Assembly (NCBI GenBank): GCA_000703065.1
Contig: JNLK01000001.1
Location: forward strand, 2,750,001 to 2,814,000
Origin: Lachnospiraceae bacterium AC2029
GTDB taxonomy: Bacteria > Bacillota > Clostridia > Lachnospirales > Lachnospiraceae
DNA: 64,000 bases
Direction: 5' to 3'
Shown: positions 6,422 to 62,579 of the stretch, one piece after another
Numbering within the stretch: position 1 is the first letter of the stretch
How the letters are laid out: the number at the start of each line of letters is the position of its first letter
Made by a program: the position numbers and the translations under genes
Notes under the pieces: generated by a model
The model's input: the letters and a program-made list of their open reading frames with translations, nothing else
What the model was told of the DNA's origin: nothing
Database searches by the model: none

Positions 6422-6480
6422 ATAATCACCCCCCCAAAACAGGGATGTCATAATAGATATCCCGCGAGAGTATGAAAAGG

Positions 6481-6519
6481 CGATGGTATGGAAGAAATTC
6501 CATACCATCGTTCCTTTTG
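6481..6519 (+). terminator. Rho-independent terminator of the glucanase gene
   Basis: A 13-bp perfect stem (6481-6493 with 6498-6510, core CGATGGTATGGAA), GAAA tetraloop, then TTCCTTTTGT. It lies 60 bases after the glucanase stop codon. Confidence 0.85.
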
Positions 6520-6583
6520 TGCGTAAAATGAGCCTTGCACAGCGAGGGCCTGGCGATAAAAGAAATGCAGATGTTCCTTACGT

Positions 6584-6612
6584 ATGATATAATAGCCAGG
6601 GGATTGCCCGAA
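6584..6612 (+). promoter_or_regulatory. TATAAT box followed by GCCAGGGGATTGCCC leader repeat
   Basis: A consensus -10 (TATAAT, 6588-6593) runs straight into AGCCAGGGGATTGCCCGAAC. The same TATGATATAATAGCCAGGGG arrangement recurs at 15131, upstream of the NlpC/P60-like gene. No convincing -35 box is seen. It probably marks the promoter and 5' leader of the CPBP gene. Confidence 0.5.
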
Positions 6613-6707
6613 CGTTGCGAAGCAAAAGCATCGTACAATTAGCCGAAAGCGATTGCTTACCCTGGCGGGAGGATTCAGGGGAGATATCAGAATGAGGAGA
6701 AGTAGAA

Positions 6708-7760
6708 GTGCGTATTCAAAACGAGAACCAGCAGAATACACAGGTTGAACTGAAGCCAGGTACAGCGACACAGGTGCCACAGCAGCCGTCAGCACCGGCA
6801 CGTACAGGGGCGCTGGCAGATTATGAAAGAAGCTGCAAAAAGAAGACTGATCACTGGTTCGTGGCTTCGCTGATCGCATTTCTTCTGATAGTTGTCGGTT
6901 CGGGAATCGTGGTTGTGCTCTATCAGGGGTTCGGGATCGATATAGATGCGACGGATATGCAGAAGGCTGCGGCGGAGGCAGGGATCAGTCCGGCTGCCTA
7001 TGAGTTTTGGAAGTACTCCACATTTATCGGGATCTGGATCCTTACATTCATCTGGATGGCTGTGCGGAGAGAGGATCGCCCCCTGTTTCGATTCATGCGT
7101 CCGGATAAGAAAGGAAACCGCTTTCGATGGATCCCGGTCGGAATCCTTGCCGGCTTTGCCGCAAATGGTTTCTGTATTCTGATGTCTGTGTTGAGCAGGA
7201 ATGTGGAACTGGAGTATACAGAGCCCTCCATCGGATGGATGCTCCTGCTCTTTCTGGCAGTAGTGATCCAGTCAGGAGCGGAGGAACTGATCTGCAGGGG
7301 TTACCTGTTCCAGAAGCTGCGACGCAGATACCGGAGTCCCTGGGTGGCGATTATACTGACCATGCTGATGTTTGCAGGCTTCCATCTGGGAAATGACGGG
7401 CTGAGTTTCTGGGCCATCCTGAATCTTCTTGAGGTTGGATTACTGCTGGCTCTTGTGGTGAATTATTTCAACAGCTTCTGGTGGGTTGTGTTCTTTCACA
7501 CGGCCTGGAACTATACTCAGAATATCCTGTTCGGACTGCGGAACAGCGGGCAGGATGCGGTTTATTCCATGTTCAGACAGAAGACACAGGGAACGAACGG
7601 CTTCTTTTTTGATACCGGATTTGGAGTAGAAGGTTCTCCCGGAGCGGTTCTGATCCTGGGACTGATGATCCTGGGGATACTCATTTTCGTGAAGAGAAAG
7701 AAGCTTAGGCCGGTGGACCTTTGGGAGAAGGAAGACAGGGACGAAAGAAGAATAGGATGA
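6708..7760 (+). CDS. CPBP (CAAX/Abi) family intramembrane metalloprotease
   Basis: A multi-spanning membrane protein of 350 residues with a proline- and glutamine-rich cytoplasmic N-terminus of about 45 residues. It has the family motifs in order: EELICRGYLF (EExxxR; glutamates and arginine), GFHLGND (histidine) and FFHTAWNYTQN (HxxxN) in the last third. CPBP proteases cleave prenylated or other membrane proteins; bacterial members serve in bacteriocin self-immunity or maturation. The GTG start at 6708 is preceded by GAGGAG eight bases away, and no in-frame ATG gives a better fit. It overlaps the next gene by four bases (ATGA), so the two are co-translated. No bacteriocin gene is visible nearby; substrate unknown. 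Confidence 0.88.
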   Translation: MRIQNENQQNTQVELKPGTATQVPQQPSAPARTGALADYERSCKKKTDHWFVASLIAFLLIVVGSGIVVVLYQGFGIDIDATDMQKAAAEAGISPAAYEFWKYSTFIGIWILTFIWMAVRREDRPLFRFMRPDKKGNRFRWIPVGILAGFAANGFCILMSVLSRNVELEYTEPSIGWMLLLFLAVVIQSGAEELICRGYLFQKLRRRYRSPWVAIILTMLMFAGFHLGNDGLSFWAILNLLEVGLLLALVVNYFNSFWWVVFFHTAWNYTQNILFGLRNSGQDAVYSMFRQKTQGTNGFFFDTGFGVEGSPGAVLILGLMILGILIFVKRKKLRPVDLWEKEDRDERRIG

Positions 7761-8422
7761 ACGAGATAAATGAGTTAAATAAGCCAAATGAGCCGGAAAC
7801 GAGCGCGGTAACGAAGGATAATGGTGAAACACCATCCGGGAAGAAGGGCAGGGGCGTGGTAATCGCTCTGGTGGTCATATTACTTCTGATCGCCGGCGGG
7901 ATCGCGATTTATTTCCTGGTACGAAAGCCAGCCGACACGCCGGAGGGTATAGCCCAGAAGATCCTTGATGCATCGGCTAAGCAAGACTGGAAGACCGTCA
8001 TAGACATGACACCGGATGAGGTACTGGAGCTCCTACTCAGTGCCGATCAGGAGCTGCTGCAGAAGAAGGGACTTACATCCGCCGGGGAGATCCGGAAATG
8101 GGCGTTGGAGCATGCAGAGGAGATCAAGGATCCTACGAACGGGAATGAGGTGAGAAACCCGAAGGTGGACGAGGTGGTCGCCATATCTCCGGAAGAATAT
8201 CTCGATCTGTTCCTGGCGGGGGAAGATGATAATACGATCTATCCATTTCTGAAAAGCAAGGATGAGATCGCAATAGTAAAGATCAGTTACATCATGGTGG
8301 ATAAGGATAATAATAAGGAGTTGGACAGGAAGGACACGGTGGTTGAATACCGGAAGGGTGGAACCTGGTATCCGATGACCGGGCTCCAGGTGATCTACCT
8401 TATGTTCCAGTACATAGACTGA
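7757..8422 (+). CDS. Membrane-anchored protein of unknown function
   Basis: A 221-residue protein with a hydrophilic N-terminus (about 35 residues), one membrane helix (GVVIALVVILLLIAGGIAIY region) and an extracytoplasmic domain that starts with TPEGIAQKILDASAKQDW. That opening resembles the helical start of NTF2-like DUF4878-type lipoproteins, but the match is only a general impression. It starts inside the CPBP stop codon (ATGA), so it is translationally coupled to the protease and may be its partner or substrate (inference). A longer TTG start at 7721 lacks a good ribosome binding site. Confidence 0.75.
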   Translation: MNEINELNKPNEPETSAVTKDNGETPSGKKGRGVVIALVVILLLIAGGIAIYFLVRKPADTPEGIAQKILDASAKQDWKTVIDMTPDEVLELLLSADQELLQKKGLTSAGEIRKWALEHAEEIKDPTNGNEVRNPKVDEVVAISPEEYLDLFLAGEDDNTIYPFLKSKDEIAIVKISYIMVDKDNNKELDRKDTVVEYRKGGTWYPMTGLQVIYLMFQYID

Positions 8423-8545
8423 TACCGGGGGCAAAAGATTGCGAACGACGTGCGTGCGGTATCACAGATGGGAGGCGGAATACCTTTTGGGCCAGGCATC
8501 ATGGAATTCCGGGCGCCCCGTAGAAACAGAAAGAGGAGAGATCGG

Positions 8546-9385
8546 ATGATTCAGGATATAGCACCTTCGATAATGGACATCAGTTTCAGTGACAGGAGGC
8601 CCTCAAGGGATTCGGTCGTCATGGTTTTCCGGGAGGGAAAGATCCTGGCGGCATATCATGAACCGGAGATCTGCTTTCCGGGAACCGAAGATGTAAATCC
8701 CGAAGTGCTGAAGGATACGGTATATCTTTTTACCGTGGATACCACGGAGTATTTCCTTTTGAATGACGGCCCCGCAGAGATGCAGGGTTTTGAGTATCAG
8801 TCCGTGAGGGATCTCCGCAAGCTGAAAACGGAGAATACCACGGCGCTGTTCGCCGCATTTACCGCATATCATCTTTCCGTCTGGTATGATGCCAATCGGT
8901 TTTGCGGACATTGCGGAAAGCCGATGGCGAGAGATACGGTGGAACGTGCCATGTGCTGTCCGGACTGCGGGAATAAGGTGTATCCCCGGATCAACCCGGC
9001 GGTGATCATCGGGATCCGGAACGGTGACAGGATCCTGATCACCAGATATCGGACCGGATATGCGCATAACGCGCTGGTGGCGGGTTTTGCGGAGATCGGA
9101 GAGGCCCTGGAGGATACCGTTCGGCGTGAAGTGATGGAAGAGGTAGGTGTGAAGGTGAAGAACATCACCTACTACAAATCCCAGCCCTGGGGAATGGCTC
9201 AGGATCTGCTGGTGGGCTTCTTCTGTGATCTGGACGGAGACGATACTATCCGGATGGACGAGGGTGAGCTGAAATATGCAGAGTGGGTAACGCGGGAAGA
9301 ACTGGAACTGCAGCCCAACGACATCAGTCTTACTAATGAGATGATGAAGGTGTTTAAGTATAGTGATCCCGGAGTCGAAGGGTAG
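8546..9385 (+). CDS. nudC: NADH pyrophosphatase / NAD-cap decapping Nudix hydrolase (NudC)
   Basis: The protein has a variable N-terminal domain, a four-cysteine zinc ribbon (FCGHCGKPM, then CCPDCGNKVYPR), a complete Nudix box (GFAEIGEALEDTVRREVMEE with the GX5EX7REUXEEXGU spacing) and the NudC array SQPWGMAQDLL downstream. NudC cleaves NAD(H) to NMN(H) and AMP and removes NAD caps from RNA. About 279 residues is normal for the family. ATG 8546 is used because GAGGAG lies seven bases upstream; an extension to a GTG at 8450 would add unrelated basic sequence. Confidence 0.93.
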   Translation: MIQDIAPSIMDISFSDRRPSRDSVVMVFREGKILAAYHEPEICFPGTEDVNPEVLKDTVYLFTVDTTEYFLLNDGPAEMQGFEYQSVRDLRKLKTENTTALFAAFTAYHLSVWYDANRFCGHCGKPMARDTVERAMCCPDCGNKVYPRINPAVIIGIRNGDRILITRYRTGYAHNALVAGFAEIGEALEDTVRREVMEEVGVKVKNITYYKSQPWGMAQDLLVGFFCDLDGDDTIRMDEGELKYAEWVTREELELQPNDISLTNEMMKVFKYSDPGVEG

Positions 9386-9434
9386 GTTGTCCCGGTGATG
9401 ATCCACAGTATGCATATTATGTGTGTGGTATGAC

Positions 9435-9470
9435 AACGAAAATGCCCCGCGGCTGCGGGGCGTTTTCGTT
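9435..9470. terminator. Bidirectional terminator between nudC and the Rel-like gene
   Basis: The GCCCCGC (9444-9450) / GCGGGGC (9455-9461) stem has a GGCT loop and is flanked by A-rich sequence on the left and TTTTCGTTTT on the right. It can therefore terminate both the rightward nudC and the leftward synthetase transcript. Confidence 0.85.
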
Positions 9471-9481
9471 TTATCACGACA

Positions 9482-10564
9482 TCAGTCGATCATGCTGTAC
9501 TTTTCACGGAGGTGGAGGATGGAAGCCACCTGCTTCTCAATCATTTTCCTTGAAGCCTCATTTTTATTCTCCCCCAGGCTGAAGTATTCACGGAGCTCCT
9601 GTTCACGGAGACCTCCGAATACCAGTCTGGCGCGGCAGATGTAGTAGAAACCGACGGTGGACGCCAATGTGTCCAGATCAGTACCGGACAGAGTTCCCCG
9701 GGCCAGCAGAAGCGCGTGATCGTGTTCTTCCTCGATAAATCTGGTGAGATCGCCCAGGGTTTCTAAATGCAGATAAAGCAGGCGCTCCAGATAGGATTCC
9801 GGAGATACCTTGACGATCTCCGAGCCGGAGAAGGAAGTGATCTCCGATACCAGAGCATTCATCAGCTTGCTCCGATTCATGAATTCCGTGAGAGTAACCA
9901 GATCCAGGCGGTAGTCATCGGCATTGTCCTCCTTGATGGCGGTACGTACCATTTCCACATAGGTGTTGATCTCCCATTTGATGAGGGAGAAGGATTCGTC
10001 GGCGATCTCCAGCAGACCGGCTACACGGGAGAATTCACGGCGAACCTCCAGCGGGATGCCGAATTCCGTCTTATATCCCAGGTCGTGTTCGATCTCTGCC
10101 CAGGCATGCTGAAGTACCGTTCGGAACTGGATCTCGAAGGGAATCTCCGTCAGCTCCTCGGGATAACCCTTATCCTTCGGGAGCGTGCAGATATAGTGAA
10201 GTGACAGATAACCGAAGGCTGTCGGAGCCATCAGCTTTCTCTTGTCGCTGCTTCGGGACATATCCACATCCAGAACCTTGCTGACCAGCTCGGCCATCTG
10301 ATCCACCTGCTCGTTGAAATAGCAGATGATCCGGAATCCGATCAGGTCCGTCAGTGAATTGATCGAAGAGTATTTCTCGGGCTTTCGTTCCAGCTTCTCC
10401 ATGGCTGAATCCCGGCTCTTGATCCGGTGTGCGATCTGCATGGGCCGGATCCCGCCCTCCTCCAGAGTTTTTGCAAGAAGAACCGCAACAATGGTTTCTA
10501 ACTGACGAAACTTCTCCAGAGATTCGTCATATTCGTTGATCAGTATTTCCTTCATCATTCCCAT
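9482..10564 (-). CDS. RelA/SpoT-domain alarmone synthetase-like protein
   Basis: The N-terminal half carries the RelA/SpoT nucleotidyltransferase fold (PF04607): HRIKSRDSAMEKL, then DLIGFRIICYF (metal/ATP region), GYLSLHYI, and EIQFRTVLQHAWAEIEHDLGYK. There is no HD hydrolase domain and no TGS/ACT tail; instead about 150 helical residues follow. It should make (p)ppGpp or a related nucleotide and belongs to the longer, YjbM-like stand-alone synthetase group. The start at 10564 is chosen because the promoter at 10616-10644 would begin transcription near 10609, leaving no leader for an ATG at 10603, and because AAAGGA (10574-10579) sits nine bases upstream of 10564. Confidence 0.87.
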   Translation of the reverse strand: MGMMKEILINEYDESLEKFRQLETIVAVLLAKTLEEGGIRPMQIAHRIKSRDSAMEKLERKPEKYSSINSLTDLIGFRIICYFNEQVDQMAELVSKVLDVDMSRSSDKRKLMAPTAFGYLSLHYICTLPKDKGYPEELTEIPFEIQFRTVLQHAWAEIEHDLGYKTEFGIPLEVRREFSRVAGLLEIADESFSLIKWEINTYVEMVRTAIKEDNADDYRLDLVTLTEFMNRSKLMNALVSEITSFSGSEIVKVSPESYLERLLYLHLETLGDLTRFIEEEHDHALLLARGTLSGTDLDTLASTVGFYYICRARLVFGGLREQELREYFSLGENKNEASRKMIEKQVASILHLREKYSMID

Positions 10565-49249: not shown

Positions 49250-49427
49250 CAACGTACAGATTAACATTTCCATTCCTTCTGAGTGGAAGACACAGCTTGA
49301 AAACCTTGCACGTATCTATTCTGTTGAGGAAGGCGAAACTATAACATTTCTTGACCTAATGCGGAGGGGTATTCAGGAAAAATATCAGTTAGGAGTTAAG
49401 GACGATGAGCGAGGAGCAATATCATAG
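49230..49427 (+). CDS. Ribbon-helix-helix-like passenger protein of the IS element
   Basis: A 65-residue protein. NVQINISIPSEWKTQLENLA is a ribbon-helix-helix-like strand and first helix, followed by a second helix EEGETITFLDLMRRGIQE. Such proteins bind DNA as dimers and usually repress their own operon. It overlaps the Cys-rich gene by 20 bases and TnpA by 23 bases. It likely controls expression of the element (inference). Confidence 0.75.
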   Translation: MARPKSDNVQINISIPSEWKTQLENLARIYSVEEGETITFLDLMRRGIQEKYQLGVKDDERGAIS

Positions 49428-49656
49428 TGCTTCACATTGCAAATATCTGATACAGTATCATATCATCTGGTGTCCTAAATTTAGATTTTCAGTTTTAAGA
49501 GGCGATGTTGAGCTTTTTAAGGCATTCCCGCAACTCAAACAGTTTTATACAAGATGCGGCGTATTATGGTCAAGAGGATTTTTTGTATCAACGGTAGGTC
49601 ATATAAGCGAAGCAACGGTAATCAAATACATAGAGGAACAGAAAAATCATGGCTGA
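49405..49656 (+). CDS. tnpA: Internally deleted TnpA (Y1 transposase) without HUH motif
   Basis: The N-terminal YLIQYHIIWCPKFRFSVLRG and C-terminal LKQFYTRCGVLWSRGFFVST ... VIKYIEEQKNHG parts of IS200/IS605 TnpA are present, but the middle about 55-60 residues, with the HUH metal site (normally MPDHVH) and adjoining strands, are missing. The frame is intact: 83 residues against the usual 130-150. It should not cleave DNA, so the element is not autonomous unless a TnpA acts in trans. It overlaps TnpB by eight bases. Confidence 0.85.
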   Translation: MSEEQYHSASHCKYLIQYHIIWCPKFRFSVLRGDVELFKAFPQLKQFYTRCGVLWSRGFFVSTVGHISEATVIKYIEEQKNHG

Positions 49657-52467: not shown

Positions 52468-53469
52468 ATGGCGAGGGGGAAGAAACAGAAACTAAAGCTC
52501 TTTTATCTGTATAAGATCATGCACGAAGAGACGGATCAGACGCATTATCTTACCATGACTCAGATCATCGAGAAACTGGGTTCTTATGGTGTGGAAGCGG
52601 ACCGGAAATCGCTGTATGACGATATCGAAACACTAGAGGTTTTCGGTATCCAAATCAAGAAGAAGAGAGTTGGAGCATACACATATTACTATGCGGCGAA
52701 TCGGCCGTTCGAGCTGGCGGAAATGAAGTTCCTTGTGGACGCAGTCCAGGCATCCAAGTTCATTTCCGAGAAGGAAACAAAAGTACTCATCACCAAGCTG
52801 CTGGACCTTGTCAGCATGAATGATGCGAAAATGCTCGAGCGGGACGTGCATGTGCCGGGGCGGATCAAGAACATGGACGAAAGCGTCTATCACACAGTAG
52901 ACGTTCTTTTTCGTGCCATGAGCGAAGATCGACAGCTCCGGTTTCATTATTTTCAGTGGAATATAAAGGCGGAGCGTGAAATGCGCCGTAACGGAGATTA
53001 CTATCTCGTCAGCCCCTGGGCCCTGCACTATGATGACGAGAAGTACTACCTGGTGGGATACGATCACAAGCATAAGGAGATCCGCCACTACCGTGTGGAC
53101 AAGATGCTGGACCCAGAAGTTGTGGATGCCAAACGGAAAGGCGTAACCAAGTACCGGAAGAAGGATCAGGAAAAGTACACCCAGCAGCACTTCCGGATGT
53201 TCGGCGGAGAACTCCAAACCGTAACCCTTCTCTGCGAGATTGACATGGCAAATGTGATCGTGGACCAGTTTGGCCGTGACATCCAGATGATCCCAGTGGA
53301 CGAAGAACACTTCACCGTGGACGTGGAGGTTGCGGTAAGTTCCCAGTTCTTTGGGTGGCTGGTAGGGATCGGCGGAGGCGTGAAGATTGCAGGGCCGGAG
53401 GATGTGAAAATGCGAATGAGAGAAGAAATAGAGATGATACAGGGTAACAGTACACGGTACCTCCACTGA
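52468..53469 (+). CDS. WYL-domain transcriptional regulator
   Basis: An N-terminal winged helix (LTMTQIIEKLGSYGVEADRKS) is followed by the WYL domain (SPWALHYDDEKYYLVGYD and IRHYRVDKM) and the C-terminal WCX-like domain (VDVEVAVSSQFFGWLVGIG). WYL proteins sense nucleic-acid ligands and regulate DNA damage or defence genes. ATG 52468 has GGAGAGG six bases upstream. The last codons (GNSTRYLH) are encoded by a copy of the 75-bp repeat, so the natural C-terminus was replaced or slightly extended by it. Confidence 0.9.
   Translation: MARGKKQKLKLFYLYKIMHEETDQTHYLTMTQIIEKLGSYGVEADRKSLYDDIETLEVFGIQIKKKRVGAYTYYYAANRPFELAEMKFLVDAVQASKFISEKETKVLITKLLDLVSMNDAKMLERDVHVPGRIKNMDESVYHTVDVLFRAMSEDRQLRFHYFQWNIKAEREMRRNGDYYLVSPWALHYDDEKYYLVGYDHKHKEIRHYRVDKMLDPEVVDAKRKGVTKYRKKDQEKYTQQHFRMFGGELQTVTLLCEIDMANVIVDQFGRDIQMIPVDEEHFTVDVEVAVSSQFFGWLVGIGGGVKIAGPEDVKMRMREEIEMIQGNSTRYLH
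53445..53467 (+). repeat. Gene-end hairpin repeat, partial copy (right half)
   Basis: TAACAGTACACGGTACCTCC and the following ACT are identical to the right half of the full copies at 59223 and 61657. It forms the end of the WYL coding region. Confidence 0.85.
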
Positions 53470-53563
53470 GGACACAATAAGATCTTTAAAGCATACGAGT
53501 GGATCGGATAATAATATGTTTGATAAAACCGTAGAAGTGAAGAGGAATGGAGGTAATGGTTCG

Positions 53564-54205
53564 ATGATGCGTAAGTTTATTCCATGGATAATCGGAGTAG
53601 TAACATTGCTTGTTGTTTGTGTACTTGCAGTGTGTCTGTATAAGAAATGTGTTACACCGACGGGTATCGTGATAACAAACGCGCCGAGATTGATGAAAAT
53701 GGATGATGTTGAGAATTTAGAATACAACATATTCCCTGAGTCTGCGAAGGGGGCGGTTACCTGGAAGAGCAGTAATGATAAAGTTATAGCGGTTGATGAA
53801 AACGGTGTTATTACCGCAGTAAGAGATGGTGTGGCTACTATATCAGTATTTACGGAGAATGGAATTTCAACAAGTGTGGATATAGAAGTGTTTACAATAG
53901 ATGGAGAATGGCATGCTTCAAAAACATTTGATCAGACAATGGGAAATGCATTGACTCCGGAACAAAACAAAACAGTAGCGGCAACAAGATTTCTTTGCTC
54001 AGGTAATAGAGGGATGCTGTTAGTTGATAATAACCGGTGTTTATTTGAAGGTGTTTTATCCAAAACAGATAATGGTGGAGATGGGGAACATGCTGATTAC
54101 AAAATTCAGTATAATCCGAATTTTGCCGCTGAGATTACCGTATTATCACGGGATGAAATAACTGTGAAGGATGGTACGCTGGTAATATATTTAGACAGAA
54201 AATAA
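53564..54205 (+). CDS. Membrane-anchored protein with bacterial Ig-like (BIG2) domain
   Basis: A 213-residue protein. An N-terminal membrane anchor (FIPWIIGVVTLLVVCVLAVC) is followed by a BIG2 domain (about 32-115; VTWKSSNDKVIAVDENGVIT ... GVATISV) and an outer domain of about 95 residues ending in beta strands with KDGTLVIYL. It is likely surface-exposed. ATG 53564 has GGAGGT about 10 bases upstream; the ATG at 53516 lacks a proper site. The segment is more A+T-rich than the genes before it. Confidence 0.8.
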   Translation: MMRKFIPWIIGVVTLLVVCVLAVCLYKKCVTPTGIVITNAPRLMKMDDVENLEYNIFPESAKGAVTWKSSNDKVIAVDENGVITAVRDGVATISVFTENGISTSVDIEVFTIDGEWHASKTFDQTMGNALTPEQNKTVAATRFLCSGNRGMLLVDNNRCLFEGVLSKTDNGGDGEHADYKIQYNPNFAAEITVLSRDEITVKDGTLVIYLDRK

Positions 54206-54497
54206 GGCAGGCCTTGATTACGGTAAATATTTAAAGAAAGAAAAGCCTAAAAGAGTGAGTCGATTAATTGATGGTTGATTTGTTGGAAGTGTAATGGAAC
54301 CTTTAAAAGAGGCGGGGGTTCTTGAGCTGAGAGCAAATAGCGCTAATGAATAAGGATTGGTAATATATCCGAAATAAAATACACCACCTACGACACATTC
54401 GTGCTTTCAGTGGTTCACATTTATTATCCTATAAAATGAACTCTAAGTCAAGAATAATACTTATTATTGAATAAATTGAGATTTGTGGGGATGATAG
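54206..54497. other. Intergenic stretch with no supported gene
   Basis: Between the BIG2 gene and the hsdS remnant I see no coding signal, terminator or known RNA. It is A+T-rich and likely holds rearrangement debris. Confidence 0.5.
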
Positions 54498-54632
54498 ATG
54501 GCAAAATATAAGCTTGAAGAGATATTTGATTTACAAATGGGTAAGAATCCATCAAGAAATACTCTAGAGTATTGGAACACTTGCCATAATAAGTGGATTT
54601 CAATCGGTGATCTTAAGAGCATACCAAAATGA
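54498..54632 (+). pseudogene. Type I restriction specificity subunit (hsdS) fragment
   Basis: A 44-codon frame begins MAKYKLEEIFDLQMGKNPSR and continues YWNTCHNKWISIGDL, the start of an HsdS target-recognition domain (normally 180-420 residues). It stops at 54632. No hsdM or hsdR is nearby. The 111 bases to recQ hold only a 10-codon frame with a good ribosome binding site, probably another remnant. Confidence 0.75.
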
Positions 54633-54743
54633 AGACGCAGAAACGATTACCGGATGGATTCGTACAGAGGACGATTTATTCTAGAGAAACAAAAGGGAAG
54701 GAGATAGGATGCCGCTGATATGTAACGACATTTGGTGTTAAGC

Positions 54744-57014
54744 ATGGATGCGAAAGAGGTATTAAAAGTCTATTTCGGATATGATTCATATAAACCAGGG
54801 CAGGAAGAGATCATTAATTCAATTCTTGACGGGAAAGATGTGTTGGCAATTATGCCTACAGGCTCCGGTAAATCGATATGCTATCAAATTCCGGCATTGC
54901 TCTTGTCTGGCATTACAATCGTTATATCACCGCTTATATCACTGATGCAGGATCAGGTTAAAGCGTTGAATGAAGCCGGTATTAGGGCGGGATACATTAA
55001 TTCTTCTTTGACGGAGTCACAGATATCTACAGTATATGCCAGGGCGCTTGATGGAGCATATAAGATTTTATATGTGGCACCGGAACGACTCGAAAGTTTT
55101 GATTTTTTGAGTTTTGCCGGAAGAGCTGGTATTTCAATGGTTACGATTGATGAGGCTCATTGTATCTCACAGTGGGGACAGGACTTCAGGCCGAGTTATC
55201 TTAAGATCGTGGATTTTATAGATGGACTTGGTAAGAGACCTATAGTAAGTGCATTTACGGCTACTGCAACAGAGGAAGTAAAGAATGACATTTCCTGTAT
55301 ACTCAAACTGCAGGAACCGAAGATTGTTGTGACCGGGTTCGACCGTGAGAATCTGTATTTTGATGTTGAGACTATCAAGAAGAAGGACGATTATGTTCTG
55401 GAATACATCCGGAAACATCATGGGGAAAGCGGAATCATATATTGTGCTACAAGAAAGAATGTGGATTCGTTATACGAAATGCTTTCCAATGAAGGTATTC
55501 AGGTGGCAAGATATCATGCCGGAATGAATAATGAAGATAGAAAAGAAAGCCAGAATGATTTTATATATGACAGAACGCCGGTGATCATAGCTACGAATGC
55601 TTTTGGTATGGGCATTGATAAATCCAATGTCCGATTTGTCATTCATTACAATATGCCGCAGAGCATGGAGAATTATTATCAGGAAGCTGGACGTGCGGGG
55701 AGAGACGGTGAACCATCGCAGTGTATCCTGCTATTTTCTGCGCAGGATATCATGATAAACAAATTTTTACTTGATCATAAGGATTTTACAGATATTCCGG
55801 ATGAAGAAATTGATCTGATCAGACAGCGTGATGCGAAAAGACTTCATGTTATGGAAGGATATTGTAGGACTTCGGGTTGCCTTCGGAAGTATATCCTGGG
55901 ATATTTCGGAGAGAAGCGAAATGAGCCGTGTGACAGTTGCGGAAATTGTCATAGAGAGTTTACAGAGATTGATATGACAGAAGAGGCTAAGATTGTCATA
56001 AACTGTGTCTGGGAAACAAAAGGGAGATATGGATTGAATATACTTTTGGGAACGCTCCTTGGCGCAAACAGAGCCAGATTAAAAGAACTTGGAACCACAG
56101 ATTACAAGACATATGGTGCGTTAAAGAATCGGTCTGAATCGGAACTCAGACTTCTTGTCAGTCAACTACTTTTGGATGGATATCTATATCAGACCGCAGA
56201 TAAATACAGTGTGATCCGATTGGGGGATATAGAACCTCTGAAGAAAGAGGATGCACACCTCATGGTAAGAACTTATAAAGACAGAGAGCCGGAGAGGCAG
56301 AAAAAAAGCCGTAGCAAGAGAAGTACAGATTCACTTACGAAAGCAGGATACGATTTATTTGAGGTTCTCCGCGGTCTGAGACTTACAATTGCCAGGGAAG
56401 AGGGGATGCCGCCATATATTGTCTTTAGTGATAAAACGCTGATTGACATGAGTGTGAAGACTCCGCGTGATAAAAAATCTATGTTTAGTGTATCCGGAGT
56501 TGGGGAGACGAAGTTTGAAAAGTATGGTGAGAGATTTATTGAGGCTATAGTTGAATTTTTAGAAGAGCATCCTGAATCTGTTACAAGTATCAGAGATGAA
56601 GAGAATCCTTCAGAGGAAAAGGCGGAGTCTGCAAAGAGGCATAGGGGCCGCAAAGGTCCGTTTTATCTTAATCCCGAGGACGGGGAAAAGTTCGAATACC
56701 GTGATCTGTTACTTTTGAGCGAGATTAAGGACGAGTTAAACAGGATCACATCCGGGGATAATGTTAAGCATGTATTTGGCACGGATATTTATAAGCTACT
56801 CACAGAAAAAGGCTACGTTGAACAACAGAATATTGAAGGAAGATTTATCCAGGTTCCGACGGAGACCGGGCAGGAAAAGGGCATAGTTGTCAGCGAAAAG
56901 ACAAGTGAGAAAGGTACGGTTTATACCGTGCTGAATTATCCGCCTGCGGTTCAGAAAGAAATCGTCGAGTATTATATAGAGATCCGCCATCAGGTGGTTG
57001 CTACTGAGGCCTGA
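54744..57014 (+). CDS. recQ: RecQ-family ATP-dependent DNA helicase
   Basis: A 756-residue helicase. Motif I AIMPTGSGKSICYQIP, motif II IDEAHCISQWGQDFRPSY, motif VI EAGRAGRDG. The RQC zinc site is CRTSGCLRKYILGYFG ... CDSCGNC, and the HRDC domain is near 525-600 (LFEVLRGLRLTIAREEG). The C-terminal about 120 residues are an extra helical/winged domain. It unwinds DNA 3' to 5' in repair. ATG 54744 is chosen over TTG 54732; both have poor ribosome binding sites, so the true start is uncertain. A copy of the gene-end repeat follows the stop by 12 bases. Confidence 0.93.
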   Translation: MDAKEVLKVYFGYDSYKPGQEEIINSILDGKDVLAIMPTGSGKSICYQIPALLLSGITIVISPLISLMQDQVKALNEAGIRAGYINSSLTESQISTVYARALDGAYKILYVAPERLESFDFLSFAGRAGISMVTIDEAHCISQWGQDFRPSYLKIVDFIDGLGKRPIVSAFTATATEEVKNDISCILKLQEPKIVVTGFDRENLYFDVETIKKKDDYVLEYIRKHHGESGIIYCATRKNVDSLYEMLSNEGIQVARYHAGMNNEDRKESQNDFIYDRTPVIIATNAFGMGIDKSNVRFVIHYNMPQSMENYYQEAGRAGRDGEPSQCILLFSAQDIMINKFLLDHKDFTDIPDEEIDLIRQRDAKRLHVMEGYCRTSGCLRKYILGYFGEKRNEPCDSCGNCHREFTEIDMTEEAKIVINCVWETKGRYGLNILLGTLLGANRARLKELGTTDYKTYGALKNRSESELRLLVSQLLLDGYLYQTADKYSVIRLGDIEPLKKEDAHLMVRTYKDREPERQKKSRSKRSTDSLTKAGYDLFEVLRGLRLTIAREEGMPPYIVFSDKTLIDMSVKTPRDKKSMFSVSGVGETKFEKYGERFIEAIVEFLEEHPESVTSIRDEENPSEEKAESAKRHRGRKGPFYLNPEDGEKFEYRDLLLLSEIKDELNRITSGDNVKHVFGTDIYKLLTEKGYVEQQNIEGRFIQVPTETGQEKGIVVSEKTSEKGTVYTVLNYPPAVQKEIVEYYIEIRHQVVATEA

Positions 57015-57026
57015 TGAATGTTGGGA

Positions 57027-57052
57027 TTAACAGTACACGGTACCTCCACTTG
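57027..57052 (+). repeat. Gene-end hairpin repeat, partial copy (right half)
   Basis: TTAACAGTACACGGTACCTC and CACTTG match the right half of the full copies, 12 bases after the recQ stop codon. Confidence 0.85.
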
Positions 57053-57151
57053 TGGTGAGCATTGGCGTATGTAAGTCGCTTTCGAAACGACCTTATTTGC
57101 AAAAATAAATGCTATATTTGTCTTATCAGATGATAAGCAGGAGGTATTTAT

Positions 57152-57955
57152 ATGTACGGAGCTATTTTGGGAGACATTATTGGTAGCCGTTTTGAGTTTG
57201 ATCGTGGTCGGAAGTCAAAAGAATTCAAGTTTTTCACAAGTGAAAGCCAATATACAGATGATTCGGTTATGACTATAGCGGTGGCAGAAGCATTGTTGAA
57301 CGCCGGGAAGAAAGCTGATGAAAATACGGTAAAAACAGAACTTATCCGGTGCATGAAGGAATGGGGACACAGAATCCCCGATGCAGGATACGGCGGGATG
57401 TTCTACAAGTGGCTGTTTACTGATACTTCAGAACCGTATGGAAGCTATGGAAACGGGGCTGCCATGCGTGTTTCCCCAGCAGGTTGGCTGTATGATACCA
57501 TGGAGCGGACCAGAGAGGTGGCTCGTTGGACAGCGGAGGTAACGCATAACCATCCGGAGGGTGTAAAAGGTGCAGAATCAGTGGCTGCCATTATATTCCT
57601 GGCCCGGACAGGCCATGATAAGTCATATATTAAGGAGTATGTGGTGAAGGTATTCGGATATGATCTGGGCAGAACATGTGATGAGATCCGACCGACCTAT
57701 CATCATGTAGAAACCAGCCAGGAGACTGTTCCGGAGGCAATAACAGCGTTCCTTGAAGGGGAGAGCTTTACTGATGTTGTTCGTACTGCTGTTTCACTTG
57801 GTGGAGACTGTGATACTTTGACTGACATTGCTGTTGCTATGGCGGAGGCGTTTTATGGTTGCCCTCATGAGCTGAAAAGAGAGTGTGAGAAGAGAATAGA
57901 ACCTGAAATGTGGGAGATTCTGAAACGCTTTGGAGATAATCTTGGATGGAATTAA
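57152..57955 (+). CDS. ADP-ribosylglycohydrolase family protein (second copy)
   Basis: A 267-residue ARH-fold enzyme with GAILGDIIGSRFEFD, QYTDDSVMTIAVAEAL, YGNGAAMRVSPAGWLYD, THNHPEGVKGA and GGDCDTLTDIAVAMA in the proper order; both metal sites are present. It belongs to a different subgroup from the enzyme at 42771. GGAGG is seven bases upstream. Its last codon and stop (AAT TAA) run into a hairpin-repeat copy, which supplies the stop codon. Confidence 0.92.
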   Translation: MYGAILGDIIGSRFEFDRGRKSKEFKFFTSESQYTDDSVMTIAVAEALLNAGKKADENTVKTELIRCMKEWGHRIPDAGYGGMFYKWLFTDTSEPYGSYGNGAAMRVSPAGWLYDTMERTREVARWTAEVTHNHPEGVKGAESVAAIIFLARTGHDKSYIKEYVVKVFGYDLGRTCDEIRPTYHHVETSQETVPEAITAFLEGESFTDVVRTAVSLGGDCDTLTDIAVAMAEAFYGCPHELKRECEKRIEPEMWEILKRFGDNLGWN

Positions 57956-57992
57956 CAGTACACAAAGACATTGGTACCGTGTTCCTTTACAG
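57952..57992 (+). repeat. Gene-end hairpin repeat, rearranged copy
   Basis: TTAACAGTACAC (right-half start) is joined directly to AAAGACATTGGTACCGTGTT and CCTTTAC, which is the left half of the next copy. Half-elements are in tail-to-head order, as if two copies recombined. Confidence 0.75.
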
Positions 57993-57998
57993 AGGACT

Positions 57999-58091
57999 AT
58001 GAGATTTGAAGACTACTTAAAAGGAATGATGTCCGGAGATACCAATATAATGGCGGAAACTATGAGTCAGATTACTTACGATAGATTTTGA
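57999..58091 (+). other. Short unsupported frame (30 codons)
   Basis: ATG at 57999 with AGAGGA nearby opens MRFEDYLKGMMSGDTNIMAE and stops at 58091. It may be the 5' stub of a lost gene; nothing further supports it. Confidence 0.25.
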
Positions 58092-58139
58092 CAAGATATT
58101 GTTTTTAAACTTCAGAGTTGTTGAGAGGAGGACAGAAAA

Positions 58140-59060
58140 ATCGAAACGTATTATTTGATTGATTTTGAGAATGTACATAGTGATGGACTGGAAGGCTGTC
58201 AGAAACTTGAAAGTACGGACCATATCATTATCTTTTTTACACAAAATGCTAAGAATTTAGATATGAGTGGTATTGCCAAACATGGTGGTGCGGATTTTGA
58301 AATGGTTGAGGTGCCTGCCGGGAAACAGTCGGCAGATATACATATTGCATCTTACCTGGGATATCTGGCGGGGAAGTATAGTGAGGATAAATGCGAAATA
58401 GTCATTGTCAGCCAGGATACAGATTATGACAATGTGATAAAGTTTTGGAAAAAGCAGGCAGGGATAAAGATTACAAGAAGGCAGAAGATACAGCAACAGC
58501 CACAGAAGGTACAACAGCCACAGCAACCGAAGAAGACGACTCAGCAACAACCATCGAGGAAAAAGGTCACTCCCGCGAAAACGCCCGTAAATGTCAGTGG
58601 TGAAAAGGAGACAAAGCTAAAGCAGGAGATTATGCAGGCAGCAAGAACCATCGGATATGATACGTCTACAGCAAATAAGATTGCTAAGCTTTCTACAGGC
58701 ATGCTCGGAAGCAGGAGCTTTTTAAACGATGTGATGAATGCATTTAATGATGAGTGGTCGAATGGTGCTGAGGTGTATGAGGATCTTAAATCTGTCCTGT
58801 CAAAGTATGCGAATGTGACGGCCCGGAAGACAGTATCTCAGACCGCTACTGCAAAGGATAAGTCGGCAGTGAATAAAGAAGTCATGCAGATACTGAGTAA
58901 AGCCGGATTGTCAAATGATGTTGTCGCGAAAGTGGCTTCCATTGTTGTTAAGAATCATGGTGTAAAAAAAGGAAAACAGACAGCTTACAGAACTATAGTA
59001 TCAAGATATGGACAGGAAAAGGGGCTCGATATATATAAGCGGGTAAAGAAATATATATAA
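58140..59060 (+). CDS. NYN-domain (PIN-like) nuclease, probable AUC start codon
   Basis: The N-terminal about 105 residues are a PIN-like NYN domain with the acidic residues at YLIDFENVHSDG, QSADIHIASYL and SQDTDYDNVI, so an RNase is expected. A glutamine/proline/lysine-rich linker (about 120-155) follows, then two helical repeats with TIGYDTSTANKIAKLS and LSNDVVAKVAS. The family usually starts with Met-x-x-Tyr-Tyr-Leu-Ile-Asp. Here the matching codon at 58140 is ATC, preceded by GAGGAG at a perfect nine bases. The nearest normal start is a TTG at 58155, inside the first strand. Confidence 0.83.
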   Translation: METYYLIDFENVHSDGLEGCQKLESTDHIIIFFTQNAKNLDMSGIAKHGGADFEMVEVPAGKQSADIHIASYLGYLAGKYSEDKCEIVIVSQDTDYDNVIKFWKKQAGIKITRRQKIQQQPQKVQQPQQPKKTTQQQPSRKKVTPAKTPVNVSGEKETKLKQEIMQAARTIGYDTSTANKIAKLSTGMLGSRSFLNDVMNAFNDEWSNGAEVYEDLKSVLSKYANVTARKTVSQTATAKDKSAVNKEVMQILSKAGLSNDVVAKVASIVVKNHGVKKGKQTAYRTIVSRYGQEKGLDIYKRVKKYI

Positions 59061-59135
59061 TCGGGTAATGAGATATATAATGCATATATCATGTTGTGGG
59101 ACTATGTTGTGATATATTTTCACCGGGGAGAAATG

Positions 59136-59276
59136 ATGAGAATCGTAGTTGCAATGGATTCGTTTAAAGAGAGCCTTTCCTCGGAAGAGGCCGGAAATGC
59201 AGTAAAGGCGGGAATACTAGGGATATTGGTACCGTGTAACTTTACAACATTGATACACTGCATAATATTTTCTTAA
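59136..59276 (+). pseudogene. Glycerate kinase 5' fragment
   Basis: MRIVVAMDSFKESLSSEEAG and NAVKAGI are the exact start of a glycerate kinase (GckA/GlxK family, normally about 370-380 residues). After 30 codons the frame enters a full copy of the hairpin repeat (59223-59297) and stops at 59276. GGGGAG is five bases upstream of the start. Confidence 0.88.
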
Positions 59277-59297
59277 CAGTACACGGTACCTCCACTT
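59223..59297 (+). repeat. Gene-end hairpin repeat, full copy
   Basis: Perfect 11-bp inverted repeats GGTACCGTGTA (59228-59238) and TACACGGTACC (59280-59290) enclose 41 bases. The unit is nearly identical to 61657-61731, with the same 63-base span. It truncates the glycerate kinase gene. Confidence 0.92.
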
Positions 59298-59348
59298 GTT
59301 TTAAAAATGAGTCGCTGGAAAAGGCCGGAATCAGGTGGTGGAGAGATT

Positions 59349-59921
59349 ATGAATGAGAGACAACACACAAAGGAATCAATCGGTGCAGATGGTCTTCGGG
59401 CGGAGACAAAATCCAAGGAGAAAAAGGCACTTCTTGTGATCGATATGCAGAATGATTATCTATGGAGTAATAGAAAAGAGATGTTTTCATACGATACAGA
59501 GAAGCTGGTCGGAAATGTGAATCAGGCCATTGAACAATATCAGGAAGAAGGATATGACATCATCTACATCAAGCATATTCTGTCGAAGCTTATGTGGGGT
59601 GTTGGTTTTTCGATCAAAGGAACGGAAGGAGCTGAGCTTTACAGCGGTCTTAATATCGTTTCTGACCATTGCTTCGAGAAGAATCATTCCGATACATTTA
59701 CGGCGAAGGCATTTCGCGAATATATGAAGGATCAGGGATTTACAGAGCTGGCGCTGTGCGGTCTTGATGAATGCGGATGCGTCGGGGCAACTGCCAAAGG
59801 TGCCGTTAAAGCAGGCCTGAAGGTGAAAATGCTCACTGACAGTATCGGAAGAAGATTTCCTGAAAAAAAGGTAAAGGCGATGAGGGATGAGTTGTTATCC
59901 CTGGGTGTAGAGTACATATAG
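59349..59921 (+). CDS. Isochorismatase-family cysteine hydrolase
   Basis: A 190-residue protein with VIDMQNDYLW (catalytic Asp), IIYIKHI (Lys) and ALCGLDECGCVGATAKGA (nucleophile Cys in the final helix turn), the nicotinamidase/isochorismatase triad in order. It probably hydrolyses an amide such as nicotinamide or a ureido compound; substrate unclear. ATG 59349 with GGAGAG about five bases upstream is used; an upstream ATG at 59307 has no such site. Confidence 0.88.
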   Translation: MNERQHTKESIGADGLRAETKSKEKKALLVIDMQNDYLWSNRKEMFSYDTEKLVGNVNQAIEQYQEEGYDIIYIKHILSKLMWGVGFSIKGTEGAELYSGLNIVSDHCFEKNHSDTFTAKAFREYMKDQGFTELALCGLDECGCVGATAKGAVKAGLKVKMLTDSIGRRFPEKKVKAMRDELLSLGVEYI

Positions 59922-59944
59922 TTTTCGTGACGGGGAGCAGAAAA

Positions 59945-60607
59945 ATGGATAGCAAACACAAATCAGATACATTGCTTCTTGCCGTGCTGCTTTCGTTATC
60001 CGGAGGCTTTCAGGATGCATATACTTATGTCCTCAGAGGGAATGTATTTGCAAATGCCCAGACCGGAAATGTTGTCTTTATGAGCCAGCGTTTGATGACC
60101 GGGGATTTCAGAGGGGCCTTACGTTATTTTCTTCCTCTGGTTGCTTTTGCTTCCGGAATACTGGTTGCCGAACAAATCGCACATTTTTTTAAGAAGATCA
60201 ATAAGGTATATTGGAGACATGTTATTTTGATCCTTGAGATCATCGTTCTTTCCATTGTCGGATTCCTTCCGGAGGAATTCAATGAGCTTGCTAATATCCT
60301 GGTTTCATTTACATGTGCGATGCAGGTTCAGACCTTCAGGTCGTTAAAAGGTCACAACTATGCCAGTACCATGTGTATCGGAAATCTAAGAAGCGGAACG
60401 GAGAGTCTGTCAAAGTATCTGAGAACCAGAAATAAAAGCAATATCATCGATTCCTTGTATTACTTTGGGATCATTCTTGTCTTTGCCATCGGCGCCGGTC
60501 TGGGAAGTATCCTGTCAGGGTATTGGGGATTCAAAACTATATTGATCTCAAGCGTTATTCTGCTGTTGGCAAATATATCAATGGTGGAAAGGAAAACTGT
60601 GGAATAA
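59945..60607 (+). CDS. DUF1275 (YoaK) family membrane protein
   Basis: A 220-residue protein with about six membrane helices and the family start LLAVLLSLSGGFQDAYTYVL, NVFANAQTGNVV, and the later QVQTFRSLKGHNYASTMCIGNLR. DUF1275 is suspected to be a transporter, without proof. GGGGAG is six bases before ATG 59945. The isochorismatase gene ends 23 bases upstream, so the two may be co-transcribed. Confidence 0.9.
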   Translation: MDSKHKSDTLLLAVLLSLSGGFQDAYTYVLRGNVFANAQTGNVVFMSQRLMTGDFRGALRYFLPLVAFASGILVAEQIAHFFKKINKVYWRHVILILEIIVLSIVGFLPEEFNELANILVSFTCAMQVQTFRSLKGHNYASTMCIGNLRSGTESLSKYLRTRNKSNIIDSLYYFGIILVFAIGAGLGSILSGYWGFKTILISSVILLLANISMVERKTVE

Positions 60608-60643
60608 TTATGTGGGATGAAATTTGGAAGGGAGAATAGACGT

Positions 60644-60957
60644 ATGGACCGATTTGCTGAAATAAAACGTACGATCCTCGATCATGTTGAAAAGGATGAA
60701 GCAATCTGTGCGGTGGTGGCCATCGGTTCGTCAACAAGAACAGAAGTGAAGGCCGGTTCATCGACCGATGGGCGGATGACTGGATTTTAAACGATATGAA
60801 AAAATGCTTTGCCCATTATGAGTCGGAGGATGTTAAAACAGCACTGGATGCGACACATCTGCTTTTTGAGAAAGTCACCAGACGGATCGCGGAAGCGGAG
60901 GGATATACATATCCGGAGCGGGCGAAGGATTGCGCATATGCGTTTCTGAAATCGTAA
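60644..60957 (+). pseudogene. AadE-like nucleotidyltransferase, internally deleted
   Basis: The frame begins MDRFAEIKRTILDHVEKDEA and reaches the nucleotidyltransferase strand AIGSSTRTEVKA, then stops at 60790. In another frame from about 60751 the C-terminal part of an AadE-like family member is clear: FIDRWADDWILNDMKKCFAH ... HLLFEKVTRRIAEAEGYTYP, ending at 60957. The middle, with the catalytic aspartates, is missing, so it is non-functional. Confidence 0.75.
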
Positions 60958-60963
60958 TCCCAT

Positions 60964-61038
60964 GTCATCCTGAGCGAAGCGAAGGATCTTACACGAAGCG
61001 AAGGATCTTACATGAATCGAAGGATCTTGCGAAGCGAA
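60964..61038 (+). repeat. CGAAGCGAAGGATCTT direct repeats
   Basis: Three tandem, slightly diverged copies of GCGAAGCGAAGGATCTTAC follow CATCCTGA, just before the GNAT gene at 61074. Function unknown; they are short tandem repeats of the kind scattered between genes. Confidence 0.75.
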
Positions 61039-61073
61039 AGACATAGAATAGTGAGAAAGTTGGGTGTAGAACC

Positions 61074-61496
61074 ATGATCGAATACGGAAATGAAATAACC
61101 GCAGAGGAATACCTGGAGCTGCGCAGGCTCGTTGGCTGGATGGAATTCCCTCTCGAGGAAGCGCAGGCCGGACTGGATAACGCCTATTATGTTGTATCGG
61201 TAAGAGATGAGGGACGGGCCATCGGTGTGATGCGGCTTCTCTGGGACGGAGGATATATCGCATTCATTTCAGATGTGATCGTGGCTCCGGATCATCAGGG
61301 ACAGGGAATCGGAAGGAAGCTGGTAGAACTCTGCATCGACAGGGTGAAGGCAGATATGAAACCCGGATACAAGGTGAAGATCAATCTGATGGCTGCAAAA
61401 GGAAAGGAGCCGTTCTATGAGAAATTCGGTTTCCTGGAACGCCCGAACGATAAAACCGGTGCCGGCATGGATCAGTGGTTCTTCGCTGATCTGTGA
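61074..61496 (+). CDS. GNAT-family N-acetyltransferase
   Basis: A 140-residue acetyltransferase with the acetyl-CoA loop VAPDHQGQGIGRKLVE (Q/RxxGxG/A) and the C-terminal NLMAAKGKEPFYEKFGF. Substrate unknown. The ribosome binding site is weak. Immediately downstream lies a second, truncated GNAT gene. Confidence 0.87.
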   Translation: MIEYGNEITAEEYLELRRLVGWMEFPLEEAQAGLDNAYYVVSVRDEGRAIGVMRLLWDGGYIAFISDVIVAPDHQGQGIGRKLVELCIDRVKADMKPGYKVKINLMAAKGKEPFYEKFGFLERPNDKTGAGMDQWFFADL

Positions 61497-61656
61497 CAAC
61501 GACATTCCGGCAGAGGATCTGCAGGAGCCGTTTCTTTCGGTGGACTGGTCTTCGGGACATTTCCCGGGCAGGCTGGTCATGGCGATGAAGAACTATGAGA
61601 CGGTATATACCGCATGGGATAAAGATAAACTGATCGGTCTGATCTGTGCCATGGAA
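61489..61656 (+). pseudogene. Second GNAT gene, truncated at both ends
   Basis: The frame reads ICDNDIPAEDLQEPFLSVDW and NYETVYTAWDKDKLIGLICA, the beginning of a different GNAT subfamily, lacking its own start. It runs into the hairpin repeat at 61657 and stops at 61740 before any acetyl-CoA motif. Confidence 0.78.
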
Positions 61657-61731
61657 GACATTGGTACCATGTACCTTTACAACATTGATACATTGCATAA
61701 TATTTTCTTAACAGTACACGGTACCTCCACT
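61657..61731 (+). repeat. Gene-end hairpin repeat, full copy
   Basis: GGTACCATGTA (61663-61673) and TACACGGTACC (61715-61725) enclose 41 bases nearly identical to those at 59239-59279. It truncates the GNAT gene before it. Confidence 0.92.
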
Positions 61732-61802
61732 GTACTATAAGTCTCGGTATCATATGGGAGAGGTAATATAGAAGATCTTACTAAAAAACGCGAGGTTAAA
61801 GA

Positions 61803-62579
61803 ATGAATAAAAAATCAAGGCAGGATGCGATAGATGAGCTGACACTGGCTCTTTTATATCTGACAAGATTTTCAGACGGAGAGGGCAATCGATATGATGA
61901 GATCGCATGGAAGAATTATGATTTCGACGCGATAGATCGTCTGGATGATGAAAACCTGATCATTAATCCGAAGAGGAAGCGTGGCGGCGGATATAAGTAT
62001 GCCTATATGACGGAAAAAGGCAGGGAGAAAGCGAGAGAACTTCTGCACAGAATGAATATTGAAGATGACAGCATTTATGAGAAGTATGAGTTCCGTAGTA
62101 TAAGGCCGGAGGAGGCAGATGAAGCTGCGGAAATTGAGAGGATATGCTTTCCGCCGAATGAGGCTTGTACGAAAGAACATATGCTGGAAAGGATAAGTGC
62201 TGCATCGGCGCATTTCTTTGTTGCTATAGAAAAAGAGACCGGCAAGATGGCTGGGTTTCTAAATGGTATCTGTACGGATGAAATGGCGTTTCGTGACGAG
62301 TTTTTCACGGATGCATCTTTGCATAATCCGAAAGGGAAAAATGTCATGTTGCTGGGGCTGGATGTGCTGCCGGATTATAGAAAGCAGGGACTTGCAAGAG
62401 AGCTTGTGTGGAACTATTGCCGCAGAGAGGAAGAAGCAGGAAGAAGACGACTGGTGCTTACCTGTAAGGCGACCAAAGTGAAAATGTATCGTAAGTTAGG
62501 ATTTCGTGATCTGGGAGAGTCTGCATCAGAATGGGGCGGCGAGAAATGGCATGAGATGGTTATTTTACTTAGCTTATAA
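61803..62579 (+). CDS. DUF6429-like domain fused to GNAT acetyltransferase
   Basis: The N-terminal about 85 residues (DAIDELTLALLYLTRF, YDEIAWKNYDFDAIDRL, AYMTEKGREKARELL) match small DUF6429-type winged-helix-like proteins. Residues about 95-258 are a GNAT domain (FRSIRPEEADEAAEIERICF, LGLDVLPDYRKQGLARELV, KVKMYRKLGFRDLG). The N-terminal part may bind DNA or protein. Both parts are in one frame. A GAGG site precedes the ATG. Confidence 0.82.
   Translation: MNKKSRQDAIDELTLALLYLTRFSDGEGNRYDEIAWKNYDFDAIDRLDDENLIINPKRKRGGGYKYAYMTEKGREKARELLHRMNIEDDSIYEKYEFRSIRPEEADEAAEIERICFPPNEACTKEHMLERISAASAHFFVAIEKETGKMAGFLNGICTDEMAFRDEFFTDASLHNPKGKNVMLLGLDVLPDYRKQGLARELVWNYCRREEEAGRRRLVLTCKATKVKMYRKLGFRDLGESASEWGGEKWHEMVILLSL

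Follow-up and report, generated by a model that had tools for sequence, protein, structure and literature searches.

The window analysed here, a 64,000-nucleotide stretch of Lachnospiraceae bacterium AC2029 (positions 2,750,001-2,814,000 of a complete 3.86-Mb chromosome, genome G000), carries a family of palindromic repeats of about 75 bp with GGTACC ends. The two arms of the repeat covary, copies are biased towards gene ends, one copy in another genome is nested within a second, and fixed-register target duplications are missing. We regard the family as probably a non-autonomous mobile palindrome, similar to REPINs or TIR dimers, that depends on a RAYT/TIRYT-type transposase acting in trans and is orphaned in this genome. 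A tyrosine (HUH/Y1) transposase of that kind would move the miniature element, which would settle preferentially just past stop codons without target duplication; single arms would represent half copies or remnants, and copies confined to a low-GC accessory stretch would end up at the borders of rearranged, partly deleted gene segments. Because the window genome yielded no transposase whose ends match those of the repeat, the family has probably stayed within one such stretch.

Structure of the repeat in the window

The repeat unit consists of two inverted arms of 17-19 bp with GGTACC ends and an AT-rich loop between them. Two full copies of 75 nt, 95% identical to each other, are present on the plus strand at 59222-59296 and 61657-61731; the first comprises a 6-bp outer end, a 63-bp hairpin and another 6-bp outer end. 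The 11-bp inverted repeats that an initial annotation, made from the sequence alone, had described in both full copies were recovered exactly in the first (GGTACCGTGTA at 59228-59238 and TACACGGTACC at 59280-59290) and with one mismatch in the first arm of the second (61663-61673 and 61715-61725). Its three partial copies were also found, all on the plus strand. Those at 53445-53467 and 57027-57050 are solo right arms with the outer end, and the third (57952-57991) proved to be a hybrid in which a right arm broken off after GTACAC (TTAACAGTACAC, 57952-57963) is followed by a solo left arm (AAGACATTGGTACCGTGTTCCTTTACA, 57965-57991). Right arms start at TAACAG or TTAACAG (53445, 57027 and 57952) and the solo left arm terminates at CCTTTACA (57991); for all four partial arms the break point coincides with the stem-loop boundary of the full copy. 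The 27-nt right end recurs at 53444, 57027, 59273 and 61708, and the 27-nt left end at 57965, 59220 and 61655.

When the 11-mer was searched with up to two mismatches, the window contained 17 matches against 5.95 expected, a number reached by none of 100 shuffles, and the exact and one-mismatch matches were confined to 53-62 kb with a sole exception at 5903. Within the complete genome the family was found only in one low-GC stretch of 8.3 kb. A covariance-model profile at E 0.1 returned the two full copies and nothing further, and a search with a 17-base arm pattern, two mismatches allowed, recovered seven arms of the cluster (one mismatch each) plus one two-mismatch site elsewhere in the chromosome. 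This lone site means little, because a backward control pattern gave 20 matches under the same search. Measured in 4-kb steps, GC content is 41-44% from 48 kb to the window end and 47-52% before; low GC continues, mostly and unevenly, for about 25 kb beyond.

Relatives in other genomes, arm covariation and mobility

Outside the window the repeat family is rare and patchy. The strict pattern GGTACCGTGTA N22-52 TACACGGTACC was detected on 10 contigs of five genomes in a collection of 84,980 species genomes, its carriers being Eubacterium sp. UBA3720, the uncultured Lachnospiraceae RUG12865 and RUG14228, Lachnospiraceae RGIG2871 and an uncultured Clostridia bin. In family f1, to which both G000 and G112 belong, the pattern occurs in 3 of 397 genomes, and a covariance model at E 1e-6 has matches in 3 of 220 family genomes, the window's own being included in both counts. 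A profile (R1) located 14 places in G070, four in G112 (plus one weak), four in G456, five in G457 and seven in G458; counting matches on both strands once and omitting the weak one in G112, these amount to 34 distinct places in five other genomes. Ten weaker model matches in G304 (best E 7e-7) follow a shorter and different design and were excluded from the counts. Contamination of G070 was considered and set aside, its copy-bearing contigs having a GC fraction of 0.44-0.48, within the 0.42-0.50 of its other loci. Searches for the repeat in plasmid and phage sequences gave no match, viral contigs held no exact match to the pattern, and an exact 21-mer that includes the window's own tail had no match in the genome contig collection, from which the window's own genome was possibly excluded. 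The exact 16-mer of the right arm was found in none of 60 other same-genus genomes; one-mismatch matches in G015, G025 and G049 have no second arm in the 120 bases read, look like chance and were rejected.

The arms evolve as a pair. They were aligned for 30 of the 36 copies, the window's two full ones included in that total (alignment A3; the omitted ones are a long-loop copy, an 83-bp copy, a copy with a broken right arm and three G458 duplicates), and pairing extends over 17 positions and four inner ones. Changes on both sides were seen in 11 of these 21 paired positions, with 31 such cells against 14.6 in shuffled alignments (0 of 500 shuffles as high), and the signal vanishes when the pairing partner is slid. 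A small hairpin within one arm (GGTAC-NNN-GTACC) showed covariation no better than shuffles, 468 of 500 being as high. Loops of the 30 copies are somewhat more alike within genomes than between them (identity of 0.644 and 0.567, respectively; 0 of 2000 label shuffles as extreme).

Mobility is indicated by a nested pair in G457, because one copy sits inside another. On contig C136 of this genome an element with GGCACC/GGTGCT ends (7608-7671) occupies the loop of a second, with a left arm that starts at 7572 and a right arm at 7697-7713. The outer element returns to 66 bases, the size of two other G457 copies, if the inner unit takes six bases on each side, arithmetic that agrees with a unit some 75 bases long and no duplication of the target. 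No fixed-register target duplication of 3-7 bp was present in 36 copies, a duplication of variable length or place falling outside this test.

Placement was assessed against random non-coding sites of the same loci, using mechanically called open reading frames (ORFs) of at least 90 aa. A gene 3' end lies within -40 to 20 bp of 18 of the 34 copies, compared with 9.4 +/- 2.5 for the null (2 of 1000 as high), and within 50 bp of 24 of them, compared with 12.3 (0 of 1000 as high). The initial annotation had placed the copies at gene ends in one orientation. This holds in the window, where all copies, full and partial, face the same way, and the 3'-end bias extends to the other genomes, but a fixed orientation does not. 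Nineteen copies lie between tandem ORFs, six between convergent and five between divergent ones, and four at contig edges; a promoter or operator function was dropped in view of the six convergent cases. Neighbouring genes are not always cut, since a LuxS gene of G070 that ends 6 bp ahead of a copy encodes a near-complete domain.

Single arms were read with their flanks at 15 sites in other genomes. Six stop at the stem-loop boundary (G070 contig 110 at 4375, 6807 and 8472; G456 contigs 414, 222 and 564), five extend into the loop (G070 contig 110 at 4394, G112 contig 3 at 11511 and three in G457), and the status of four that carry one or two mismatches is doubtful. The boundary is thus a frequent end point, though no rule outside the window.

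Several features of G070 were noted in passing. Locus L081 contains two further families of intergenic repeats (6549-6757 and 7671-7736); with 3150-9800 of this locus as query, 51 matches were obtained in the G070 draft, all of them, the self match apart, to those two stretches. A DUF6429-GNAT gene follows a copy both in G000 (61803-62579) and in G070 (L079, 1932-2729), with 72% protein identity, and a G070 gene for a DUF1275 protein (54% identical to that of the window) stands directly after a copy. By eye, the DNA between copy and gene looks unrelated.

Candidate transposases and comparison with known repeats

The family resembles two described groups of repeats. REPs and REPINs (BIMEs) occur as singlets and inverted pairs, often downstream of genes, and are linked to Y1 transposases (PMC3733652, PMC6006769). 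The window family likewise combines two inverted copies of a short repeat, forming a hairpin, with singlets, and shares the bias to positions downstream of genes. It differs in its arm consensus GGTACCGTGTACCWTTA (alignment A3), which carries neither a GTAG nor a CGTC foot, and in its pairing, as the long-range pairing is supported by covariation and the local hairpin of one arm is not. A foot is also lacking in some TnpAREP subclasses (PMC6006769). In TIRtrons, a gene for a TIRYT (RAYT-type) HUH-tyrosine transposase is flanked by short inverted repeats that are also dispersed as monomers and dimers (PMC3733652). The same source describes REP families mainly from Proteobacteria, and the words Clostridi- and Firmicutes are absent from its main text. 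Our literature search, which was not made by the sequence itself, turned up no paper describing this repeat; the GGTACC-ended family is thus absent from the literature found. To the known families it adds one with GGTACC ends from Lachnospiraceae-type genomes, in which arm changes are compensatory, one insertion is nested in another copy and a group of candidate transposases is at hand.

Y1 transposases were matched in six of seven genomes scanned, with other flanks, stops or truncation; all carriers except G000 are drafts. G000 has 11 Y1 matches, among them a RAYT-like one at 370 kb with an open frame of 252 aa. Its flanks (L110, 2000-2200) carry GGGACGGTTCTGATC palindromes and a GGGGACAG tract, the latter fitting the GGGGWSAS motif given for the TIRYT class in PMC3733652. 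This gene and its palindromes form a second, unrelated repeat-transposase pair in the genome.

Closer candidates came from G304, where, upstream of a RAYT gene, 32 bases of the window repeat's right end are matched at 84% identity. With the G304 protein as query, 28 loci were obtained from 24 of 200 genomes; together with the G304, G456 and G070 loci they make 31 RAYT loci. The motif GGTNNNNGGTACC occurs 10 times in 3 of these 31 loci, against 0.77 expected from base counts; three palindromes, read on both strands, account for six of these occurrences. In 55 control loci it occurs twice, against 1.4 expected; 26 of these controls had originally been fetched for likeness to the window repeat, and one of the two occurrences (L038, G062) is a real solo arm. 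In G170, three palindromes of the form GGTACCTGACACC..GGTGTCAGGTACC surround the RAYT gene on both sides; the G110 gene lies between GGTGTCAGGTACC and GGTACCAGGTACC, both preceded by an identical TTTTGTTCACAATTTGTTCATGGT; and in G304 the GGTACC-ended repeat is upstream only. Among the matches of the G304 protein, those of G110 and G170 rank third and fourth (48% identity). Nine of 25 RAYT loci share a flank repeat longer than in any of 30 shuffles, so flank repeats of their own are common in this group; the test missed the G110 repeats, one of which lies outside the compared stretch. The likely mover of the window repeat is a protein of RAYT type similar to those of G170, G110 and G304; this is the weakest step of the argument, the exact cognate being missing. 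With a candidate group of transposases and covarying arms at hand, the matching of arms to transposases becomes directly testable.

A number of observations weigh against this interpretation. The initial annotation had suggested looking for a recombinase with matching ends, and the outcome is mixed: GGTACC-ended repeats of like design stand beside 3 of 31 RAYT genes, but the exact GGTACCGTGTACC arm stands beside none of them. The closest matches of the G304 protein (G064 and G195) lack GGTNNNNGGTACC, as do 28 of the 31 loci overall, and the G304 locus itself was reached, in a screen of 299 genomes, by a match with an E value of 0.0024. The RAYT gene of G000 has palindromes of another kind at its flanks, those of G456 and G070 show no GGTACC arm in the DNA read, and G457 has no Y1 match. 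Of the 34 copies, five are flanked by divergent ORFs and four are centred within an ORF, and among the 15 single arms outside the window the stem-loop boundary is the end point in only 6. Folding of the 61657 copy as DNA barely exceeds that of shuffled sequences, 32 of 200 of which fold as well. Finally, a plain mobile element should sometimes give simple insertions, and no window copy is demonstrably an insertion with one gene on both sides.

Gene segments at the copies and alternative explanations

The initial annotation had suggested either a miniature inverted-repeat transposable element (MITE) or a cassette-like recombination site. The MITE half comes near the mark, given the nesting, the loop likeness within genomes and the 3'-end bias; the cassette half is possible and unproven. 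MITEs are small, non-autonomous elements with inverted ends and a target-site duplication. Inverted arms, short length, nesting and within-genome similarity would all suit a classical MITE whose arms are recognised by a DDE transposase as terminal inverted repeats. Such an origin is nevertheless unlikely, considering that the 36 copies lack the duplication sought, that in the loci read after a single-arm search of six genomes neither a transposon with these arms at its ends nor a parent insertion sequence was found, and that both arms of a copy change together.

The cassette-like explanation depends on what lies on either side of the copies. Segments flanking them, whose window genes described in this and the next paragraph are on the plus strand, are present in several of the 60 other same-genus genomes, and four of the five window copies turned out to be borders between unlike segments, no close relative being available for the one at 53445. 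This copy encodes the final seven codons of a WYL protein (AAC AGT ACA CGG TAC CTC CAC) and the T of its stop. The arm at 57027 begins 12 bp past the stop of a shortened RecQ-type helicase (54732-57014; 82% identical to G016), which lacks the C-terminal tail seen in same-genus G016 and G027, a point absent from the initial annotation. In G016 the longer RecQ gene is followed directly by the start of a PIN7 gene, and in the window an ADP-ribosylglycohydrolase segment (57047-57930; 82% to G048) with arms on both sides lies between RecQ and PIN7. Its gene (57152-57955), between two partial copies, has its TAA stop inside TTAACAG at 57952.

The segment with the PIN7-domain protein (58155-59060) and glycerate kinase genes, at 57992-59218, is 96% identical to contig 11 of same-genus genome G038, and that with the isochorismatase-like and DUF1275 genes (59307-60607), at 59300-60606, matches contig 13 of G038 with the same 96% identity, its left neighbour there being different; the first full copy joins the two in the window. 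The glycerate kinase, which continues in G038, is reduced to a fragment (59091-59276) whose frame of 61 aa, with a Pfam match over 28 residues, stops at a TAA within the copy. The second GNAT fragment (61417-61740), without a Pfam match of its own, continues in G038, G034 and G049; the window departs from these relatives at 61659, and the frame is then translated right through the second full copy. The gene ends that the initial annotation had assigned to the repeat, two of them coded by partial copies and two cut by full ones, were accordingly borne out. One G038 sequence (L157:1434) resembles a left arm, a single and unproven site.

This border pattern favours recombination or deletion at the copies, by which the borders may have arisen, and keeps alive the explanation that the arms join or exchange gene segments, every copy being a cassette border. 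Integron attC sites are imperfect palindromes at gene 3' ends with an R-box, one per intact cassette, in arrays near an integrase gene. The window family shares the imperfect palindrome, its place at gene 3' ends and, in the window, a single orientation; the four segment borders, the ADP-ribosylglycohydrolase segment, the joined G038 segments and the lack of any demonstrable simple insertion agree with such a system. We still judge it quite improbable. With three of the bordering genes cut (RecQ, glycerate kinase and second GNAT), the segments are not made up of complete genes, and two complete and three partial copies form no array of intact cassettes. No R-box was seen by eye in alignment A3, orientation varies in other genomes, and the near-complete LuxS of G070 adjoins a copy. 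No integrase was found among 27 proteins scanned around the copies (17 in the window and 10 downstream), a genome-wide PF00589 search not having been made; mobile-element proteins among the 27 were only a truncated Y1 transposase and an IS605-type TnpB.

The borders at four of five copies, the lack of a demonstrable simple insertion and the breakage of all four partial arms at the stem-loop boundary have also led us to consider a RAYT-type cassette system, in which GGTACC palindromes would be the ends by which an HUH/Y1 transposase picks up and joins neighbouring DNA. We hold this to be very doubtful; if the junction pattern did reflect active joining, it would constitute a new way of shuffling genes. 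Least probable of all is a stabilising or terminating RNA hairpin under selection at mRNA 3' ends, for although arm changes are compensatory, copies favour gene ends and the RNA fold of the 59222 copy beats all 200 shuffles, the fold of the 61657 copy is less clear (7 of 200 as good), no U-run directly follows the stem in the window copies, no Rfam match was found over 52-64 kb, and solo arms, nesting and patchy occurrence do not fit.

Other features were also recorded. The truncated Y1 gene in the window (49405-49653) is of IS200 type and has a near-identical second copy at G000:2914472, both inside a longer duplicated block. Just downstream of the window (L076, 616-11602) lie a Macro-domain gene, the IS605-type TnpB gene and genes for Wadjet JetA, JetC and JetD. 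A tandem array of 2.8 copies of the 19-bp unit CGAAGCGAAGGATCTTACA precedes the first GNAT gene (60975-61028). Compared with G020 or G038, the interval 60747-61520 is short of about 500 bp at one point and about 900 bp at another, the joins overlapping by 22-23 and 16 bp, and a third join, with an overlap of 38 bp, marks a smaller missing stretch; these are deletions between short direct repeats.

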